Shown here: piece by piece, positions 7,528 to 16,858 of the stretch
How positions within the stretch are numbered: position 1 is the first letter of the stretch
Layout: the number at the start of each line of letters is the position of its first letter
IMG/VR virus record: IMGVR_UViG_3300017726_000043
Location: 1 to 31,484 of that record
Direction: 5' to 3' (one strand)
DNA from: a virus
Length of the DNA: 31,484 bases
The notes under the pieces: generated by a model
The model's input: only the letters and a program-made list of their open reading frames with translations
Told to the model about the DNA's origin: nothing
Databases searched by the model: none
Translations under genes and position numbers: made by a program

Positions 7528-9431
7528 TAGCGTTTTCCGTCAGGTTTTATTTCTATCCTATTATTACCTAATCGCCAACCAGTATCACTGTTTCCAGGAT
7601 AAGAAGCGTCGTCATCTGATTCAAATCTAAAAGCTGCTTGTCTAGACCTAGAACGTAAATCTACTTTAGCAGAGGTACTCGTTACAGCGTTAGTGCTTTT
7701 AGTAGTTAATGTTTCTCCAGGAGCGTTTCTAGTTTTTAATACGAAATTTATTTGTCCTCCTCCTGGATTATTTAAAAATCTAACATCAGGTATTAATTTA
7801 GATATATGACTAAATTGTTCTCCTTCATCTAAATCCATATCTGAGCTTTCTATAAAAACATTAGTCATAGGACTACCATCATCGTCATAACCGAACTCAT
7901 GTTCATATAAATAATTACTACTTGTGGCTCTTGGGTAAGGTTCTGTACCCGCGTCTAACCAAGCTGTTCTACTTAATACTCCGTAAGTCCATGCACCTAT
8001 TTCATAGTTATAAGAAACATATCTATCTATTTCAGAACCGTTTTTCGAAGTATAAAACCAACCTACTTCGTTAAATTCTTCATTTAAAAAAGCATGAAAT
8101 TTATAAACTTCTGAAATATTTATATCATCAAAAACATAACTCAAAACTGTACAAGGAACTTTTTGTACTGTACCTGTGTAGACATAAAAATTATCTACCG
8201 CCATCCAAAAAACACCTTTAGACGTTACTATCGCAGCATTAGGTCCAATTAATCCAGTTTCTTTATTTATTAAATTTATACCAAATGTAAAGGGTGGTCC
8301 GATAAATTGCATACTATATAAAGAAGTATCTGTCCAAACTAATATTTCTTGCCTAGATTTTACTGCTCCTACAATAGTACTACCTTCGGATAAACTTAAA
8401 GCTCCTGCGGTGTTAGTAGATTTTGGTTCCCATTCTACAATATTATCTTGGTCGCTAAATGCAATAAGCATTGGGTCAATTACTCCCGTTCTGGCTGTTC
8501 CTGCAGTATTTATAGGGTCTGTCCCTAAAACTATAGCGTGTTTATCTACCTGAGATACTAGGGTAAATAACCCTACTGTGGGGGCTAAATTAGCCCCTAC
8601 TAGGTCGGATAACGCTTTAGCCCTATTATGATTATTATTACTAGCCCATTCTACTCCTGCAGAAGTGTCCCAGAAAAATATACCGCCATTTCTAGGATTA
8701 ATAATTAAATCTTCACCGTAATTATCATGCGACCATAATCTTAATTGACTAGCAAAAGCTAATGGGCTTGTACTCCCCCAAGTGCTTTGTCCCCAAGTTC
8801 CTGCTCCCCAACCAGTTCCAGATATATAAGTATCTAATCCTATTTGTATTTGATAGTAACCTATAGTACTACTACCTCCATTATTCGAGTCAGAACCTGT
8901 AGCAGCTACTGGTGAAGTTATCGTATAACTATTCGCATTTACTACTGAAGAAACAATATACCCTATTTGATTTAAATATGTTGTTCCTGTTTGATTTAAA
9001 ACATCTGCAGTTATAGCACCACCTAAACTAGCTGCTCCACTAAAAGCTACATAGTCTCCCGCTCCTAATCCATGATTAGTATCTGTTACAGTTATAGTAG
9101 TCGAGCCAGAACTAGCAGAAAAAGTTACATCTCCTGCTGCTGTTGTTTGTCTTAGCGGTGTTATATCATAAAACCCGCCACCTTTTTCGATATAATATTT
9201 ATTAGTTGTACCTAATCCTAAAAACTTAGTACCGTTTAAATCAGTCCAACCGTGTAATTTTCTAGCATTACCTAAAAAAGTTGTACTATTATCTTTTCTC
9301 CAACCACCTATTTTTTCTACGTTTTGTTTATTAAAACGTATTAAATTACCGTCGAACCAACCTCCCTCATTACTATAATTAGTACCTTCTCTATTGATTC
9401 CTGGTTTAAATTGTAATTTTAGTAAGGGCAT
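7527..9431 (-). CDS. Virion structural protein, possibly P22 gp10-like stabilisation/tail hub protein
   Basis: A 634-aa beta-rich protein starting MPLLKLQFKPGINREGTNYS, followed by GGWFDGNLIRF and VEKIGGW. This N-terminus and the later WMAVDNFYVYTG and GWFYTSKNGSEIDRYVSYNYE segments are like the packaged-DNA stabilisation/tail hub family (P22 gp10) and related marine virion proteins. In P22 this protein plugs the portal vertex beneath the adaptor. The residue-level match is from memory and could not be tested, so the product name is tentative. It is certainly a real gene: long, in the structural block, coupled to the endolysin gene by TAATG. Confidence 0.55.
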   Translation of the reverse strand: MPLLKLQFKPGINREGTNYSNEGGWFDGNLIRFNKQNVEKIGGWRKDNSTTFLGNARKLHGWTDLNGTKFLGLGTTNKYYIEKGGGFYDITPLRQTTAAGDVTFSASSGSTTITVTDTNHGLGAGDYVAFSGAASLGGAITADVLNQTGTTYLNQIGYIVSSVVNANSYTITSPVAATGSDSNNGGSSTIGYYQIQIGLDTYISGTGWGAGTWGQSTWGSTSPLAFASQLRLWSHDNYGEDLIINPRNGGIFFWDTSAGVEWASNNNHNRAKALSDLVGANLAPTVGLFTLVSQVDKHAIVLGTDPINTAGTARTGVIDPMLIAFSDQDNIVEWEPKSTNTAGALSLSEGSTIVGAVKSRQEILVWTDTSLYSMQFIGPPFTFGINLINKETGLIGPNAAIVTSKGVFWMAVDNFYVYTGTVQKVPCTVLSYVFDDINISEVYKFHAFLNEEFNEVGWFYTSKNGSEIDRYVSYNYEIGAWTYGVLSRTAWLDAGTEPYPRATSSNYLYEHEFGYDDDGSPMTNVFIESSDMDLDEGEQFSHISKLIPDVRFLNNPGGGQINFVLKTRNAPGETLTTKSTNAVTSTSAKVDLRSRSRQAAFRFESDDDASYPGNSDTGWRLGNNRIEIKPDGKR

Positions 9432-10589: not shown

Positions 10590-11669
10590 TTAATACCCTA
10601 TAGCCATTACTCTCATATTTCCTGGATTTGCACTTGTTAAAAATACGGCACCTGTTGTACTAACTGAATATATATAGTTTGAACCATCTCCAGAAGATGT
10701 TGTTCTTTCGTCATGTTTAGAAAGAGATACGACAGCATTTGGAAAAGCAAGTGGAAAAGTCCAAGAAGGGTACCAACTGCTGATTGTTACTCTAGCCCAA
10801 CACATTTGTAGTCCATTACTAAATCTGATGTATCCTGAAGTACTAGAATTAGAATAATTACTTGCAGTTAAAAATCCTGAATTATTACTTAATTGTGATG
10901 TAGCTGTAGGTATTGTTGGTTTACTACTTAAATCATTATAGCTCCCACTAAAGTTAGACGTGCCTTTAGCATTTATTTGTGTTTGTATCGCAGAGCTTAC
11001 TCCATTTAAATATTGAAATTCTGTATTACTAATAGTTCCATTTGCAATTTTTGCAGCGTCTATCGCAGCAGAGGTTTTTATATTAGCGTCTTCTACATTT
11101 GTTAAACTATTACCTGTTCCATCTGCGTCGAAGGTCTTATTGGTAAATGTAGTCGTACTTGAAGCAGTTATAAAATTAGCTAATTGACTAGCTAAAGTAC
11201 TGCCTCCGATAGTAACGTTTGCTGATAAAGCTACTTTATCTAAACCGTCATAAACTGCGGCACCAGAACCTAATCCGTCAGTAAATACTACTTTAGCAGT
11301 TCCATTAGCAATAATTACATTAGCACCAGAACCTTGTGATATAGATATTGATTGTCCTCCCGTTGTAGCATTTTCTATAATAAATATTTTAGAAACCGTA
11401 TTAGGAGCTATATTTAATGTTCTAGTGGCAGATAAAGTGGTGCTTCCATCACAAGTAACTTTAATATACATCGCCCTATATTTATCAGATACTCCATCTC
11501 CTATAGTAGCAGTTTTAGCTCCATCACTGTCAAATGTAGCTTCAGTTTGATATGAAAAAGCCTCCGCTATTAACTCTAAATTAGTATTAGTTACTGAACC
11601 CCAAGTACCAGACTGGTCCCCAGTTCCCATTTCATTTAATCTAAGATTATTTCCGTATGTACTCGCCAT
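10590..11669 (-). CDS. Tail fibre protein with gp53-like C-terminal domain, 359 aa
   Basis: A 359-aa fibre. The N-terminal part (NLRLNEMGTGDQSGTWGSVTN) is a fibre-type domain widespread in marine phages. The middle is a beta-rich Ser/Thr/Gly shaft containing TTFTNKTFDADGTGNSLTN and EFQYLNGVSSAIQTQI motifs. The last 85 residues begin GYIRFSNGLQMCWARV, contain FPLAFPNAVVSL and end VMAIGY, which fits the gp53-like receptor-binding C-terminal domain of tail fibres. It would bind host surface structures. The tail-fibre assembly-like gene follows one base downstream. Confidence 0.8.
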   Translation of the reverse strand: MASTYGNNLRLNEMGTGDQSGTWGSVTNTNLELIAEAFSYQTEATFDSDGAKTATIGDGVSDKYRAMYIKVTCDGSTTLSATRTLNIAPNTVSKIFIIENATTGGQSISISQGSGANVIIANGTAKVVFTDGLGSGAAVYDGLDKVALSANVTIGGSTLASQLANFITASSTTTFTNKTFDADGTGNSLTNVEDANIKTSAAIDAAKIANGTISNTEFQYLNGVSSAIQTQINAKGTSNFSGSYNDLSSKPTIPTATSQLSNNSGFLTASNYSNSSTSGYIRFSNGLQMCWARVTISSWYPSWTFPLAFPNAVVSLSKHDERTTSSGDGSNYIYSVSTTGAVFLTSANPGNMRVMAIGY

Positions 11670-11699
11670 ATTGCCTCAATTATATGTAATAAAATCTGT

Positions 11700-12638
11700 T
11701 TACGCTACCTCATCCCAATTAGGGTTTTGAGTATCGTTTACGTTACCATAGTTCGGTGTTTGACTGCTAGAAACATCAATATAGTTCGGTGTTTGACTAT
11801 CATCTACCATACTCCAAATTAATACTTTTGGCTCTCCTGTTGTACCTACCTGTCCTACAGGAGTTATATTAGCTTTACCAATAAATGATATAGAACCTAA
11901 TGATGATGTGCTGGACACACCAGAAATACTAACTGCATTTTCCGTTCTCGTACTCGGGTTATTTAGAGTAGCTTGTAAAGTTAGTCCTGCTGCAGAAATA
12001 TTGGCTTTACCTGTTATTGAAGATAATGTACCTAATGCTGATGTACTCGTTTGACCGTCTACACTTATATTAGCTTTTCCACTTGCTGTTATTGAACCTA
12101 CTGCAGAATTTGCAGCTCCTACTGCTTCTGTATCGGTACTTGCCAATACGTTCGCTGCACCTGCAGTGGAAGGTGTGCCAAGTGTTAAAGTACTAGTTTG
12201 ACCTACGGCAGTAACATTAGAGTCTGCGTTTGTAGTTACACTTACAGAACCAACACCCCCTGATACTCCAGGAACTATAGATACAACACTACCATTTACC
12301 CCTAAACCAGAAACAGAAGCTGTTAATGCTGATAATGGTTCATCAGGGTTATTTCCATAGTCATTAACTAGTGCACTTGCGGAAATTGTTGGACTGCCTA
12401 GTGCTGATGTACCTGCTTGACCAGAAAGAGTAACACTTGCTCCAGCAGCAACAGTAGCTGTACCTAAAGCAGAAGTTCCTACTTGACCTGTAGGGTTTAT
12501 GTGAGCTACACAAACAAAAGCGGTTGTACCTACAGCTCCAGTACCAGCTTGTCCTGTTAGAATTACATTTACACTCGCAGAGTCACCTCCAGCTAATGCT
12601 GAAAATGGGGCTTCTGAAAATGCACTTATACCAAACAT
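11700..12638 (-). CDS. Repeat-rich virion/tail protein with 'GQxGTSALG' repeats, 312 aa
   Basis: A 312-aa protein built of roughly 30-residue beta repeats centred on G-[QV]-x-[GS]-T-[SG]-[AS]-[LV]-G. Copies include TGQVGTSALGTATV, SGQAGTSALGSPTI, DGQTSTSALGTLSS and SGVSSTSSLGSISF. It ends with three short repeats of the type SQTPNYxxV. Composition (Ala, Val, Ser, Thr, Gly; few charges) suggests an extended surface or fibre protein. The first residues (MFGISAFSEAPFSALA) match a capsid/tail attachment-like start seen in phage fibres. One repeat unit is shared at protein and DNA level with the cupredoxin-bearing protein. No enzyme motif is present. Confidence 0.7.
   Translation of the reverse strand: MFGISAFSEAPFSALAGGDSASVNVILTGQAGTGAVGTTAFVCVAHINPTGQVGTSALGTATVAAGASVTLSGQAGTSALGSPTISASALVNDYGNNPDEPLSALTASVSGLGVNGSVVSIVPGVSGGVGSVSVTTNADSNVTAVGQTSTLTLGTPSTAGAANVLASTDTEAVGAANSAVGSITASGKANISVDGQTSTSALGTLSSITGKANISAAGLTLQATLNNPSTRTENAVSISGVSSTSSLGSISFIGKANITPVGQVGTTGEPKVLIWSMVDDSQTPNYIDVSSSQTPNYGNVNDTQNPNWDEVA
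11748..11798 (-). repeat. Direct 18-bp repeat encoding SQTPNY units
   Basis: Two identical 18-bp copies (11748-11765 and 11781-11798), 33 bp apart start to start, are in frame and code for the repeated Ser-Gln-Thr-Pro-Asn-Tyr unit at the C-terminus of the repeat-rich protein. A third, diverged unit follows towards the stop codon (TQNPNW). Confidence 0.85.
12391..12424 (-). repeat. Dispersed 34-bp repeat, copy 1
   Basis: This 34-bp segment matches 18614-18647 at 31 of 34 positions by direct comparison. Both code for the SGQAGTSALGSPT/TGQVGTSALGSPT beta unit, in two different genes 6 kb apart. The nucleotide-level match suggests duplication or recombination between tail genes. Confidence 0.85.
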
Positions 12639-12899
12639 TTAATTACCAGATAAAAATTGATAAACGGGTCCGTATGCAATATCTGTTCCTAAAAAAGTAT
12701 TTAGAAGAAAAATTATTCCGTTAATAAATACAATTTTAGTTCCTACTACAATAAATACTATCCAAGCAATAGTTAATAGTAACCCATGTTTTTGATAAAA
12801 TTCTTTTACTTTTCTAATTATAGGAAAATTCCATTTACCTTCTGTAAAAACTGTATTTAATACAGGTACTAAGTAAAATAATTTATCCTTTATTTTCAT
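12639..12899 (-). CDS. Small membrane protein, 86 aa
   Basis: An 86-aa protein with a basic N-terminus, a strong membrane helix at residues about 38-62 (HGLLLTIAWIVFIVVGTKIV) and a second, weaker hydrophobic stretch just after it (INGIIFLLNTFLG). I do not recognise the family. Its stop abuts the next ATG (TAAATG), and its start abuts the stop of a 41-aa membrane peptide. It is in one tight run with the Coq4-like gene, so a membrane function linked to that cassette is possible, as is a holin role. Confidence 0.65.
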   Translation of the reverse strand: MKIKDKLFYLVPVLNTVFTEGKWNFPIIRKVKEFYQKHGLLLTIAWIVFIVVGTKIVFINGIIFLLNTFLGTDIAYGPVYQFLSGN

Positions 12900-13025
12900 T
12901 TATATAACTCCCAACCTCATTGCAAACGGTAAAATCTCATAATAAATAAGTACTGCCGTTGCAGTAATAATGACTCCTGATAAAAAGCCGCCTATAAGTG
13001 TTATTAATTTTACTTTTATTTCCAT
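12900..13025 (-). CDS. Small membrane peptide, 41 aa
   Basis: A very short gene read from the gap between the Coq4-like gene and the 86-aa membrane protein. It starts MEIKVKLITLIGGFLSG and has one membrane helix (about residues 7-30), with a short tail ending MRLGVI. A GAGGAG Shine-Dalgarno, embedded in the last codons of the Coq4-like gene, sits at proper distance from the ATG. The TAA abuts the next ATG. Good spacing on both sides and the strong ribosome-binding site support it as a real gene. Function is unknown. Confidence 0.7.
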   Translation of the reverse strand: MEIKVKLITLIGGFLSGVIITATAVLIYYEILPFAMRLGVI

Positions 13026-13027
13026 AG

Positions 13028-13801
13028 TTACTCCTCGTGTTGATTAATCCATTTTAAATATCTAACGGGTTTTTCGAACCCAAATTCTTTTCTAATATCA
13101 TTCACATCTTTTTCTAAAAAATATAATAAAGAATGTTCTATTAAATTATTTTGGTTTACTTTTTTAGCAATTTTACAGGCTTCTCTATATATAAAAAATG
13201 GTTCTAGTGATTTAGCTCTCCATGCAATCCTACAAGTTACTAAAAAACCTACGTACCACATTCCTATGTTGCCCACCTGTCTCCAAGTAGTTCCTTGTAT
13301 TAAAGCCTCACCAAAAGGTGAAGTGTCATATTTAAATAATATATGGTGTAAATCATGAGTTAACATCATATGTCTGCCAACATTGTTCCTTAAATCATTT
13401 GTTCTATCATCGGAAAGCATATCTTTTTTAGCATTGTCTTTTTCGAATCTGTCTTTATATAAATCATTAAATGTCCATTCTTTAAAAAACTCAGCTAAAT
13501 GTCCTCCTGCGGTATTAGGGGGTAAACTTTTTAAATATTTCATACTCGATATTTTTGGTATAACATTTTTATCACAATATTTTTTATCATTCCAATCTAA
13601 TCCTAAAGCTACTTTTATTCGTTCGGGAGAACTTCTAAAATTATTTTTCATTCTTTTTTGACTAATAAACATTAATTGTGCGTATATAGCTTGTAATTCT
13701 GAAAGTCTAGCCCTTGCCTCTGGATGAGACACTCTTTGTTCATGAGAATCTCTTATCAAAATTGATTTAGATAATTTTAAAAATGTAGGAAAACTAAACA
13801 T
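13028..13801 (-). CDS. coq4: Coq4-family protein (ubiquinone biosynthesis), 257 aa
   Basis: Residues 149-165 carry the diagnostic Coq4 motif exactly: H149-D150-x-x-H153, eleven residues, then E165 (THDLHHILF ... SPFGEAL). Upstream, KSLPPNTAGGHLAEFF (91-106) matches the Coq4 'L-P-x-x-T-x-G-x-x-x-A-x-F' segment, and RHMMLTHD matches the 'R-Y-R-x-T-H-D' run. In eukaryotes and many alphaproteobacteria Coq4 works in coenzyme Q synthesis, organising the complex and replacing the ring C1 carboxyl in an oxidative decarboxylation step. The length is near the family's. A phage copy could sustain quinone supply and respiration during infection, but activity is unproven. Confidence 0.8.
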   Translation of the reverse strand: MFSFPTFLKLSKSILIRDSHEQRVSHPEARARLSELQAIYAQLMFISQKRMKNNFRSSPERIKVALGLDWNDKKYCDKNVIPKISSMKYLKSLPPNTAGGHLAEFFKEWTFNDLYKDRFEKDNAKKDMLSDDRTNDLRNNVGRHMMLTHDLHHILFKYDTSPFGEALIQGTTWRQVGNIGMWYVGFLVTCRIAWRAKSLEPFFIYREACKIAKKVNQNNLIEHSLLYFLEKDVNDIRKEFGFEKPVRYLKWINQHEE

Positions 13802-14533
13802 TTATTTAGCGATAGTTACTATCCTAGCTACTTCAGAAGATTGATTTGTTATATCTACTTCTGAACTTGTAACTTTTTTTACATCATATTGTTCTATTTG
13901 TGTTTCACCTATAGAACAGTTTTGCGAAAAGAAAATATAGAACAAATCAACATCTTCTCGTTGTACTGTTTTAGTTTTTCCAGGTTCAATATCTAATAAT
14001 TTTAAATTAAAACCTTCTTTTTCAGTCATAAAACAAAGAAACCTAGTATCGTCTTCTAGTGCTGTTTGAGCAGCGTATCTACCATTAATATGCCATTTAG
14101 CAGAACGAGGATATATTACATCGAAATCCGCACCAAACTTGTAAGAAGTTAAAAGCTCTTTATTAGCAATTGTTTCTTCTACTGTGCTTTCTGTATATTC
14201 ACCTTTTTTAATTTTATCGTCTGCAGTTATTTCTTTCCATCTTTCTATATCTTTTGCTTCTATACCGTCTTCTTCTTTCCATCTTTGACAAGATTGAATT
14301 TTACCTTGTATCAAAACAAAATGATTAGGTCTATATACGATATGAGGACTAACTTCATCAACGATATGTTCATCTATCTCAGCAGTAGTTTCGCTAAAAT
14401 AAAGCAAACTTTCTTCAAAAGTATCTCTACTTTGTACGTCTCCTTTTTTTCCTATAGTTACTGTGACTTGAAATTCATCATCAATAATTTTATGGGTTTC
14501 TTCTATCCAATTAAAATCGAACCTTACTGTCAT
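13802..14533 (-). CDS. Unrecognised protein, 243 aa
   Basis: A 243-aa acidic protein that I do not recognise. The C-terminal 70 residues (about 173-243; PGKTKTVQREDVDLFYIFFSQ then TSSEVDITNQSSEVARIVTI) have the strand pattern of a small cupin-like or jelly-roll barrel, but the metal ligands are not clear. The middle contains a charged helix with two similar RWKE segments (QRWKEEDG and ERWKEITADD). It ends one base before the Coq4-like ATG and overlaps the upstream 77-aa gene as TAATG, so all three are probably translated together. Confidence 0.55.
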   Translation of the reverse strand: MTVRFDFNWIEETHKIIDDEFQVTVTIGKKGDVQSRDTFEESLLYFSETTAEIDEHIVDEVSPHIVYRPNHFVLIQGKIQSCQRWKEEDGIEAKDIERWKEITADDKIKKGEYTESTVEETIANKELLTSYKFGADFDVIYPRSAKWHINGRYAAQTALEDDTRFLCFMTEKEGFNLKLLDIEPGKTKTVQREDVDLFYIFFSQNCSIGETQIEQYDVKKVTSSEVDITNQSSEVARIVTIAK

Positions 14534-14766
14534 TATATCTCTCCTGTCGTAATTTTCTTAGCGTTAGCGTCTACACTAAACATATCATATATATTTTCTT
14601 GTGTAATGTGTCTGAAAAATTCTTGTTTAATGTGTACTTCTTCATAACCTTCAAACATAGATTTAGGTTTACGAATAGCAATTCCTCTATAATCACAACG
14701 ATATACTATTGTTCCATTATCAGCAGTTTCTTCGTAATAAATAATATCTTCTGCTTTTTCAACCAT
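14533..14766 (-). CDS. Hypothetical protein, 77 aa
   Basis: A 77-aa protein starting MVEKAEDIIYYEETADNGT. I start at the ATG at 14766, which overlaps the stop of the fibre gene as TAATG, in preference to a TTG eight codons upstream inside that gene. A likely beta start (IVYRCDYRGIAIRKP) is followed by a helix (EVHIKQEFFRHITQENIY). No known motif is visible. It opens the cassette that contains the Coq4-like gene and is joined to the next gene by TAATG. Confidence 0.65.
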   Translation of the reverse strand: MVEKAEDIIYYEETADNGTIVYRCDYRGIAIRKPKSMFEGYEEVHIKQEFFRHITQENIYDMFSVDANAKKITTGEI

Positions 14767-15554
14767 TATTTTGTAATACTTATATTCCAAGTACCTGACA
14801 TATTAACATTCGTATTAGTAGCAGTGGTCCAACTAAAAGTTGTATATGCTCCGATTCCAGGATAAGTACCTTGAATAGACCATTGTTTGCCAGTTATCCA
14901 TCCACTGTTTTGATGAGTATCACTTCCATAAAGTCTAGTTGTAGGAACTCCATCTTTAGCAGGAACATCGATATAACGAAAAGGACAAGTTGAAGTATTC
15001 CAATTAGCTCCTGCATTGTAATTAGTTCCCCATGTTCCACCTATAGCTAATGCAAAGTTAAGATTACCCCAAGCTCCATTGTTTGTTTTGGATTGCGAAG
15101 CCCAAAAACCAGCAGTATAACGATTTGTAGTTGTAGGATTATTATCAGTTCCTCTAAAGTGATTAAAAGATATTGCACCAGAAGAAGGTATTTGTCCTGC
15201 ATTTCCTACTTGGTCTATACCTTCTTTAAATGCGTAAGTAAGGGTTGACTGTCCTCCAATATAAGGATAAGCAGTGCTACTTCCTAACTGTGACATTTTT
15301 CGCCCAAACTGACGATAATAACCATTATATGCTGGAGTCCCTGGAACACCTTTACTTCCAGGTACTGCTGGAAAATATATATTTGTGCTTGAATAAGATA
15401 CTGCATTAGCAACAGTAGCAGGATTATTATTACTATTTAAATTTCCTGCATAGTATTCACTCATACTATCAGGAGGCTGACCACTTGTTCCACCATAACT
15501 CCATTCTGTTCGGATGTTAGTCATTGAAACAGAACCTGATGCAGGTATCGTCAT
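14766..15554 (-). CDS. Tail fibre/receptor-binding-type protein, 262 aa
   Basis: A 262-aa protein starting MTIPASGSVSMTNIRTEWSY, with a second related segment (IPSSGAISFNHFRGTDN) at about residues 122-138. Both match the 'I-P-x-S/T-G-x-[IV]-S-[MF]-x-x-[IF]-R' unit common in phage fibre and baseplate-distal proteins. The rest is rich in Gly, Asn, Trp, Tyr and Thr, like a receptor-binding tip. It overlaps the S74 fibre by ATGA (4 bases), so the two are probably made and assembled together. Its ligand cannot be read from the sequence. Confidence 0.7.
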   Translation of the reverse strand: MTIPASGSVSMTNIRTEWSYGGTSGQPPDSMSEYYAGNLNSNNNPATVANAVSYSSTNIYFPAVPGSKGVPGTPAYNGYYRQFGRKMSQLGSSTAYPYIGGQSTLTYAFKEGIDQVGNAGQIPSSGAISFNHFRGTDNNPTTTNRYTAGFWASQSKTNNGAWGNLNFALAIGGTWGTNYNAGANWNTSTCPFRYIDVPAKDGVPTTRLYGSDTHQNSGWITGKQWSIQGTYPGIGAYTTFSWTTATNTNVNMSGTWNISITK

Positions 15555-16858
15555 CCCTTAACCTCTAGTTCTTTTACTTTAGCTGTAAGAGTTTCTATTT
15601 GTTCTTGTTGTTCTTTAATTGCTTCTACTAATAACCCTACTGTGTTGCCATAACGAATAGCTAAATGTTCTTCTGCTTCTATACCATTAATTTCATCAGG
15701 TATTGTTTCTGAAGTATAAACTGCTTCAGGTAAAACTTTTTCTAAGTCTTGTGCTATTAGTCCTGTGAGCCTATTCCCATCAGATTTTAAAGTGTAGGTA
15801 ATACCTTTAAGTTGTTTTACTTTATCTAAAGCATTATCTATAACCTCTATATTTTGTTTAAGTTTTATATCAGAAGGAGAGCCATAAGCTGTAATATTTG
15901 CTAAAGCTACAAAGTTTCCAGAGCCATCAACTTGTGCTGTATTAGTGCCACTTGCATTTCTAAAAACATGAGAGGCACTTTGATAATAGATATGACCACT
16001 ATGTGCTTGTATTTTTCTAGCTTTTTCTCCTGTCCAATTTCCGTCATTTAATTCAATATCAGTTCCTGCGGCTATATCAATACCACCATTAAAATTAGCT
16101 CTACCTGCATCAGACATATCAACAGTAAGAGCAGTAATATCAGAGCCTCCATCCACACCTTTAAATATAATATCTTTATCAGAAACTTTAGACTCAATAG
16201 TAAAATTACTACTCCCTAAATTTATTACTCCTGTCTCTGTTCCAGAACCTAAAAATTGAAACTCTGGAGTACCTGTATTTGAATTAAATTTTATAGCATC
16301 ATTTGCTTGAATTTTTCCACCAAAGATTGCTGTAGCTCCATCAGAGTAATCAATAGTTAAACCTGTTTTTAACCCACCACCATCAGAGTCATAACCTTTT
16401 AAGATGAAGTCTTTATCATTTAAATTGTTTTGAATAATGAAATCATTATTGGTGGTTTTAATAACTGCAATTGTGTTAGACGAGTTAGTAAAACTAAAAT
16501 CATCTCCAGGAGCATTAAATTCTAAGTCTCCTGAGCCATCTATAAATACAGCTTTACTTGCAGGTAATGTACAAAATACATCTTTAGTTCCTGCGGAAAA
16601 GTTTACTGCGGAGTCTGAGTTTGAACTACTAATAATCGTAGTTCTTGATAATGTGTCTGGTGAAGAATCTGATACTGTGCCTAAACCTACTTCAAACTCA
16701 TCTGCGGTTTGGTGAACTATAGAGTAGTAAGTAGTATTGGTGTTACCTATACCTGCTACAAAAGTTTCAAATCCTACTTCGGCTCCAGCTAAATTAACTG
16801 TACCTGTGCCTGTAGTAGTAGTGGTTTCTTTTACCCTATCGTTAAGGACAAGAGCCAT
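15551..16858 (-). CDS. Tail fibre with C-terminal peptidase S74 chaperone domain, 435 aa
   Basis: The N-terminal 110 residues (MALVLNDRVKETTTTTGTGT on) form an attachment domain common in marine phage fibres. The middle is a beta shaft with repeated NDKDFILKGYDSDGG / SDKDIIFKGVDGGSD units, each followed by TGLTIDYSDG or TALTVDMSDA. From residue 329, SDIKLKQNIE and LTGLIAQDLEKVLPEAV form a peptidase S74 intramolecular chaperone, with Ser329 and Lys334 placed five apart as in the endosialidase Ser-Lys dyad. It should trimerise the fibre and then cleave itself off. The C-terminus is a coiled coil. A strong GGAGGAG precedes the ATG. Confidence 0.9.
   Translation of the reverse strand: MALVLNDRVKETTTTTGTGTVNLAGAEVGFETFVAGIGNTNTTYYSIVHQTADEFEVGLGTVSDSSPDTLSRTTIISSSNSDSAVNFSAGTKDVFCTLPASKAVFIDGSGDLEFNAPGDDFSFTNSSNTIAVIKTTNNDFIIQNNLNDKDFILKGYDSDGGGLKTGLTIDYSDGATAIFGGKIQANDAIKFNSNTGTPEFQFLGSGTETGVINLGSSNFTIESKVSDKDIIFKGVDGGSDITALTVDMSDAGRANFNGGIDIAAGTDIELNDGNWTGEKARKIQAHSGHIYYQSASHVFRNASGTNTAQVDGSGNFVALANITAYGSPSDIKLKQNIEVIDNALDKVKQLKGITYTLKSDGNRLTGLIAQDLEKVLPEAVYTSETIPDEINGIEAEEHLAIRYGNTVGLLVEAIKEQQEQIETLTAKVKELEVKG

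Follow-up and report, generated by a model that had tools for sequence, protein, structure and literature searches.

A Coq4-family gene with an intact metal motif carried among phage tail genes

What might a phage gain from a member of the Coq4 family encoded in the midst of its tail-fibre genes? Animal COQ4 takes the C1 carboxyl off the polyprenylated ring precursor (PMC7615680), and the human enzyme has been reported as an oxidative decarboxylase that achieves decarboxylation and hydroxylation in one step (work reviewed in PMC11495197). The question arises from a 31,484-base IMG/VR virus record, the whole of which we analysed and refer to as the window. Its minus strand carries almost all of the genes, which include terminase, portal, capsid and tail-fibre genes, an M15 endolysin, a PD-(D/E)XK exonuclease, a 2OG-Fe(II) oxygenase and GroES.

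Family membership, metal motif and predicted fold

The gene at positions 13028–13801 on the minus strand has an ATG start and encodes a protein of 257 amino acids. An earlier note on this DNA had recognised in it the metal motif of Coq4, HDxxH-(x)11-E, together with a matching segment further upstream, and both are present. The motif (13307–13357, minus strand) opens with HDLHH at residues 149–153, and E165 follows H153 after a gap of exactly 11 residues; H149, D150, H153 and E165 are thus the candidate metal ligands, and all four occupy invariant alignment columns. The second segment, LPPNTAGGHLAEFF (residues 93–106; 13484–13525, minus strand), aligns with the cellular LPxGTxGxxYxxF.

The search against the family profile, PF05019, that the note had proposed gives a significant score of 26.3 bits against a curated cut-off of 22.9. 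The match spans profile positions 72–220 only and leaves the first ∼80 residues of the protein unmatched, and it is the C-terminal two thirds that place it in the family; with the cut-off exceeded all the same, we do not treat the N-terminus as a defining part. Of the related viral records, all 11 that were tested also score above the cut-off (23.5–36.6 bits), as does L227. Comparison of the phage alignment with a cellular-only Coq4 alignment in HHalign gives 99.1% and an E-value of 1.3e-18 over 165 columns. In an alignment of 49 Coq4 sequences from phages and cells, T148, H149, D150, H153, G164 and E165 are invariant and R237 is nearly so; a separate Coq4 alignment shows L90 nearly invariant and G99 invariant. 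On this basis the assignment to the Coq4 family, which the note had made from the motif, is in very little doubt.

The protein thus shares with human COQ4, yeast Coq4 and the bacterial members the metal motif, the L90/P94/G99 segment, T148, G164, R237 and a predicted helical core fold. It differs from them in being phage-borne, in being only 14–23% identical over the alignment, and in its N-terminal third, where the ∼80 N-terminal residues are unrelated and, in the 49-sequence alignment, the region of the cellular EDTxxVF stretch has no counterpart. Scanning of the genome contigs with patterns from this N-terminal part gave no match. A phmmer search of the PDB with the single window sequence likewise found nothing, and a phage profile reached 3msq at an E-value no better than 0.096, with the motif aligned.

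An AlphaFold2 model built from the 49-sequence alignment has a pLDDT of 75.5 and a pTM of 0.76, with block means of 78–92 around the motif, and supersedes a model from six near-identical phage sequences (pLDDT 38); because the larger alignment contained cellular Coq4 rows, the fold is not independent of them. The motif residues sit on two helices, 137–155 and 162–176. In a Foldseek search of the PDB the sole convincing matches were 3msq and 6e12 (probability 1.00; E-values 3e-4 and 1e-3), the next being unrelated chains at E-values of at least 1.5; viral models gave no match. Both structures are Coq4-family proteins from Nostoc, 13–16% identical to the window protein and from source organisms without ubiquinone, and one is titled in the PDB as a complex with oleic acid. 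The TM-scores to them are moderate (0.46–0.49, normalised by the query), and the likely reason is that the window protein departs from Coq4 in its N-terminal third. Judged from conserved residues and predicted fold, the protein is probably a working enzyme of the family.

The gene as phage cargo

The gene lies inside a phage tail-fibre block, as the note had stated; Pfam and PHROGs calls on genes to both sides bear this out. Upstream (14533–16858, minus strand) lie tail-fibre-type genes for proteins of 77/85, 262 and 435 amino acids, the last identified by a Peptidase_S74 domain in Pfam and by PHROGs and the two smaller, which have no Pfam or PHROGs match, by context. Downstream (10590–12638, minus strand) are genes for a 312-residue protein, assigned by context, and a 359-residue protein with Gp53-like_C, assigned by Pfam and PHROGs. 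Directly upstream of coq4 is a gene for a 243-residue protein (13802–14533, minus strand) for which searches of Pfam, PHROGs and INPHARED returned nothing; it is conserved in the same place across carriers, at 78–93% identity in the close ones and 41–42% in L227–L229. Directly after coq4 comes a 41-residue open reading frame with one hydrophobic stretch in its translation (MEIKVKLITLIGGFLSG...; 12900–13025, minus strand), a similar frame being found in G005 and G010. This is followed by a gene for an 86-residue protein with two predicted membrane helices (12639–12899, minus strand; hydrophobic windows 34–52 and 56–74), for which Pfam and PHROG searches gave no match. It lies downstream of coq4 in all carriers checked and is 92–94% identical between carriers whose large terminase subunits (TerL) are 56–59% identical; in L227 and L228 a homologue of 46–47% identity adjoins coq4.

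Related coq4 genes are found on 14 further IMG/VR contigs, at identities of 98–100%, 82%, 65% and about 40%. Carriers examined on both sides of coq4 have, in order, the 262-residue protein, the 77/85-residue protein, the 243/233-residue protein, coq4, the two-helix protein, a protein of 230–310 residues and a tail protein of 360–440 residues. The dN/dS of coq4 is 0.05 between the window and L003, 0.11 (0.07 in the core) against L004 and 0.26 against L010. A cell-type gene is thus fixed between phage genes, with the same neighbours in all carriers examined, as expected of an auxiliary metabolic gene, and we conclude that coq4 is real phage cargo under purifying selection.

Comparisons of marker genes bear on the kind of phage involved. 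The window TerL is 56–57% identical to those of HTVC027P and 023Pt_psg01, and 60% identical, over 90% of its length, to that of the lake phage DSL-LC04; the capsid protein is 76% identical to that of 023Pt_psg01 and 69% to that of HTVC027P. The GC content of the window, 0.347, is near those of HTVC027P (0.356) and 023Pt_psg01 (0.362), for both of which parts of the genome were compared, whereas that of DSL-LC04 is 0.524. Taken together, these identities and GC values point to a phage of the HTVC023P/HTVC027P type, which would be related to viruses of SAR11, and the likeliest host would be a low-GC marine alphaproteobacterium. Across the pelagiphages of this type the window shares the late-gene order, with TerL 52–57% and capsid 69–76% identical. 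The deposited genomes of the type differ from the window in having no Coq4 match; the INPHARED search found none in HTVC027P, 023Pt_psg01 or DSL-LC04, and a survey of 80 genomes mentions neither ubiquinone nor Coq4 (PMC9599517). The curli-secretion genes CsgG and FecR, reported for the group, are present in some coq4 carriers too. In two of these (L227:8194–10737 and L023:11366–13909) the block is 97–98% identical while their Coq4 proteins are much more diverged, suggesting a recently exchanged block.

Viral and cellular relatives

Scanning with cellular Coq4 profiles revealed further viral carriers, and Coq4-family genes are now seen in four virus types, the window type and three others. The largest set comprises 36 contigs of T4-type phages (L182–L218 except L190 and L192, plus L240; for example L188:7153–7962), in which the gene comes after that for the large terminase subunit and, on contigs that extend far enough, before the one for the tail sheath. 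Two of these proteins were tested against Pfam and score 82 and 69 bits; the nearest INPHARED TerL to those of the carriers is from a cyanophage, at about 56%. Large contigs also carry a family member: L190 (360 kb; 7638–8321, 70 bits) and L192 (90 kb). The gene on L181 (4073–4816) scores 87 bits, and its product is 41% identical to a cellular alphaproteobacterial Coq4; it adjoins a 2OG-Fe(II) oxygenase-like gene on a contig that also encodes NifU_N (a NifU/IscU-type scaffold), a holin and a DNA ligase. Each of the 42 additional viral copies listed keeps HDxxH-(x)11-E.

A tree of 82 rows joins L190 with the window and T4-type clades in one group (87/99) apart from cellular sequences, whereas L181 pairs with a sequence from an alphaproteobacterium (99/93), so that at least two acquisitions are called for. 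The earlier note had proposed a phylogeny with alphaproteobacterial Coq4; in it the window clade does not join the coq7-linked sequences and instead stands on a long branch in the virus-only group. Its stem is very long, at 3.3 changes per column, which makes its exact position unsure. Long-branch attraction may draw the viral sequences other than L181 together, and we do not claim a single viral origin.

INPHARED has no match to the Coq4 proteins of the window, L010, the T4-type phages or L181, PHROGs has no Coq4 family, and we found no phage Coq4 in the open-licence literature searched, consistent with the remark in the note that no characterised example was known. As far as these collections show, phage-borne Coq4 is undescribed; it represents a known enzyme family in a new, phage-carried form and not a new kind of system. 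A comparable case is ubiG, found in Baltic Sea viruses (PMC9301287), likewise a viral gene assigned to ubiquinone biosynthesis but encoding another enzyme for another step of the pathway.

Among cellular genomes, Coq4 is present in 13 of 18 low-GC marine alphaproteobacteria (the order of G287). In the three genomes of this order examined, two small genes separate coq4 from the nearby coq7, and in a 53%-GC relative coq4 is likewise near coq7; this linkage speaks for a quinone-related role of Coq4 in bacteria. The order of G115, a large order of 1.0–1.5 Mb genomes, several with rhodopsin, is probably SAR11, the names SAR11 and HIMB59-like being assigned here from size, GC and gene content. COQ7 occurs in 53 of 58 genomes of this order, UbiD in none of the 58 and Coq4 in none of 117, so that its C1 decarboxylation enzyme would be neither of these. 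The C1 step in Rhodobacter capsulatus is carried out by a flavin enzyme, UbiN (PMC10626278), and a host need not therefore lack the activity; the idea of a host without any enzyme for the step, which we had considered, is weakened accordingly.

Up to six Coq4-family matches occur in a single alphaproteobacterial genome (L113/L138 and L136; genomes G069, G160 and G263), which suggests that family members do not all have one function. Sphingomonas members (L071, L075, L076, L085 and other loci) depart from strict HDxxH-(x)11-E; in L076 the spacing to the glutamate is one residue longer (HDIWHVLTGYKADESLGE).

Possible roles of the phage protein

The reading that we favour, to which we give about an even chance, is that phage Coq4 would carry out the C1 decarboxylation, perhaps oxidative, of ubiquinone synthesis and so support respiration during infection. 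On this view, a lytic marine podovirus of the HTVC023P/HTVC027P type carries in its late (tail) genes, as cargo, a gene that an ancestor acquired from a cell in the distant past and that selection has since maintained. Its product, a putative Coq4-family metal enzyme, would have as its substrate a host aromatic acid that is polyprenylated and membrane-bound, the C1 carboxyl of polyprenyl-4-hydroxybenzoate being removed or oxidatively replaced, and quinone supply and respiration might thereby keep pace during infection. What we infer is that the enzyme is active, what it acts on, which host it serves and how the phage benefits. In ancestral animal COQ4, C1 decarboxylation needs H142/H146 and D143/E158, the same motif residues (PMC7615680). 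No other quinone genes are seen in the window. Transcripts for oxidative phosphorylation rise in the host when the related pelagiphage HTVC027P infects it (PMC12753301), a phage with no annotated coq4, making respiration a plausible target and the gene one that is not needed for the effect.

The unmatched N-terminal third and the very long branch mean that the substrate may have changed. A Coq4-family enzyme, or a lipid-binding protein, acting on some other prenylated or lipid substrate and not on ubiquinone precursors is the most serious competing account, though clearly a less probable one. Cyanobacteria make plastoquinone and not ubiquinone, and the Coq4 family is also present in them, so that membership does not fix the substrate; the oleic acid in the title of the Nostoc structure, the several family matches in some alphaproteobacteria and the high divergence of the window clade all fit such a change. 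Against these stand the unchanged metal motif and core residues, the linkage between coq4 and coq7 in those low-GC marine alphaproteobacteria that were examined, and the COQ7 of the host if it is SAR11, which implies that it makes ubiquinone.

It is unlikely that the fold has been reused without catalysis, as a tail or virion component or as a membrane scaffold working with the small hydrophobic neighbours. The placement of coq4 between tail-fibre genes, that of the T4-type copies between terminase and tail sheath, and the highly conserved two-helix protein that follows coq4 would suit such a role, but the four metal ligands are intact in every viral copy despite very long divergence, unlike those of a protein freed from catalysis, and the related phages that have no Coq4 match (HTVC027P, 023Pt_psg01 and DSL-LC04) indicate that the tail can do without it. 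A role in signalling or against the host, such as the binding of quinone intermediates to slow respiration or counter a defence, draws on the same plausibility of respiration as a phage target and seems very improbable. We give practically no credence to a passenger or artefact (misbinned host DNA, a chimera or a decaying gene), for although contigs in IMG/VR come from metagenome assembly, coq4 sits within the tail genes, and synteny and dN/dS lead us to reject host contamination and gene decay; the 14 further contigs have the same neighbours and an open frame in all, and purifying selection is strong.

Returning to C1 decarboxylation in ubiquinone synthesis, a broader proposal, which we advance tentatively, is that a Coq4 subfamily specific to viruses, common to phages that are otherwise unrelated, takes over this step in SAR11-type hosts without recognised UbiD or Coq4. 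If this were so, quinone synthesis would be a direct target of phages, and hosts would receive a decarboxylase during infection; were the SAR11-like order the host, the phage would bring a decarboxylase for a step whose UbiD the host lacks. The role of the Coq4 metal site is debated, between a plain decarboxylase (PMC7615680) and an oxidative one (work reviewed in PMC11495197), and the phage members, with an unchanged site in very diverged surroundings, offer natural test pieces for it. Some phages may tune host respiration by a route that the literature searched does not describe. Respiratory capacity is set by the quinone level, and an enzyme of their own that modifies the ring at an early step would, if the favoured reading is true, give phages of the ocean and of fresh water a direct handle on the respiration of their hosts.
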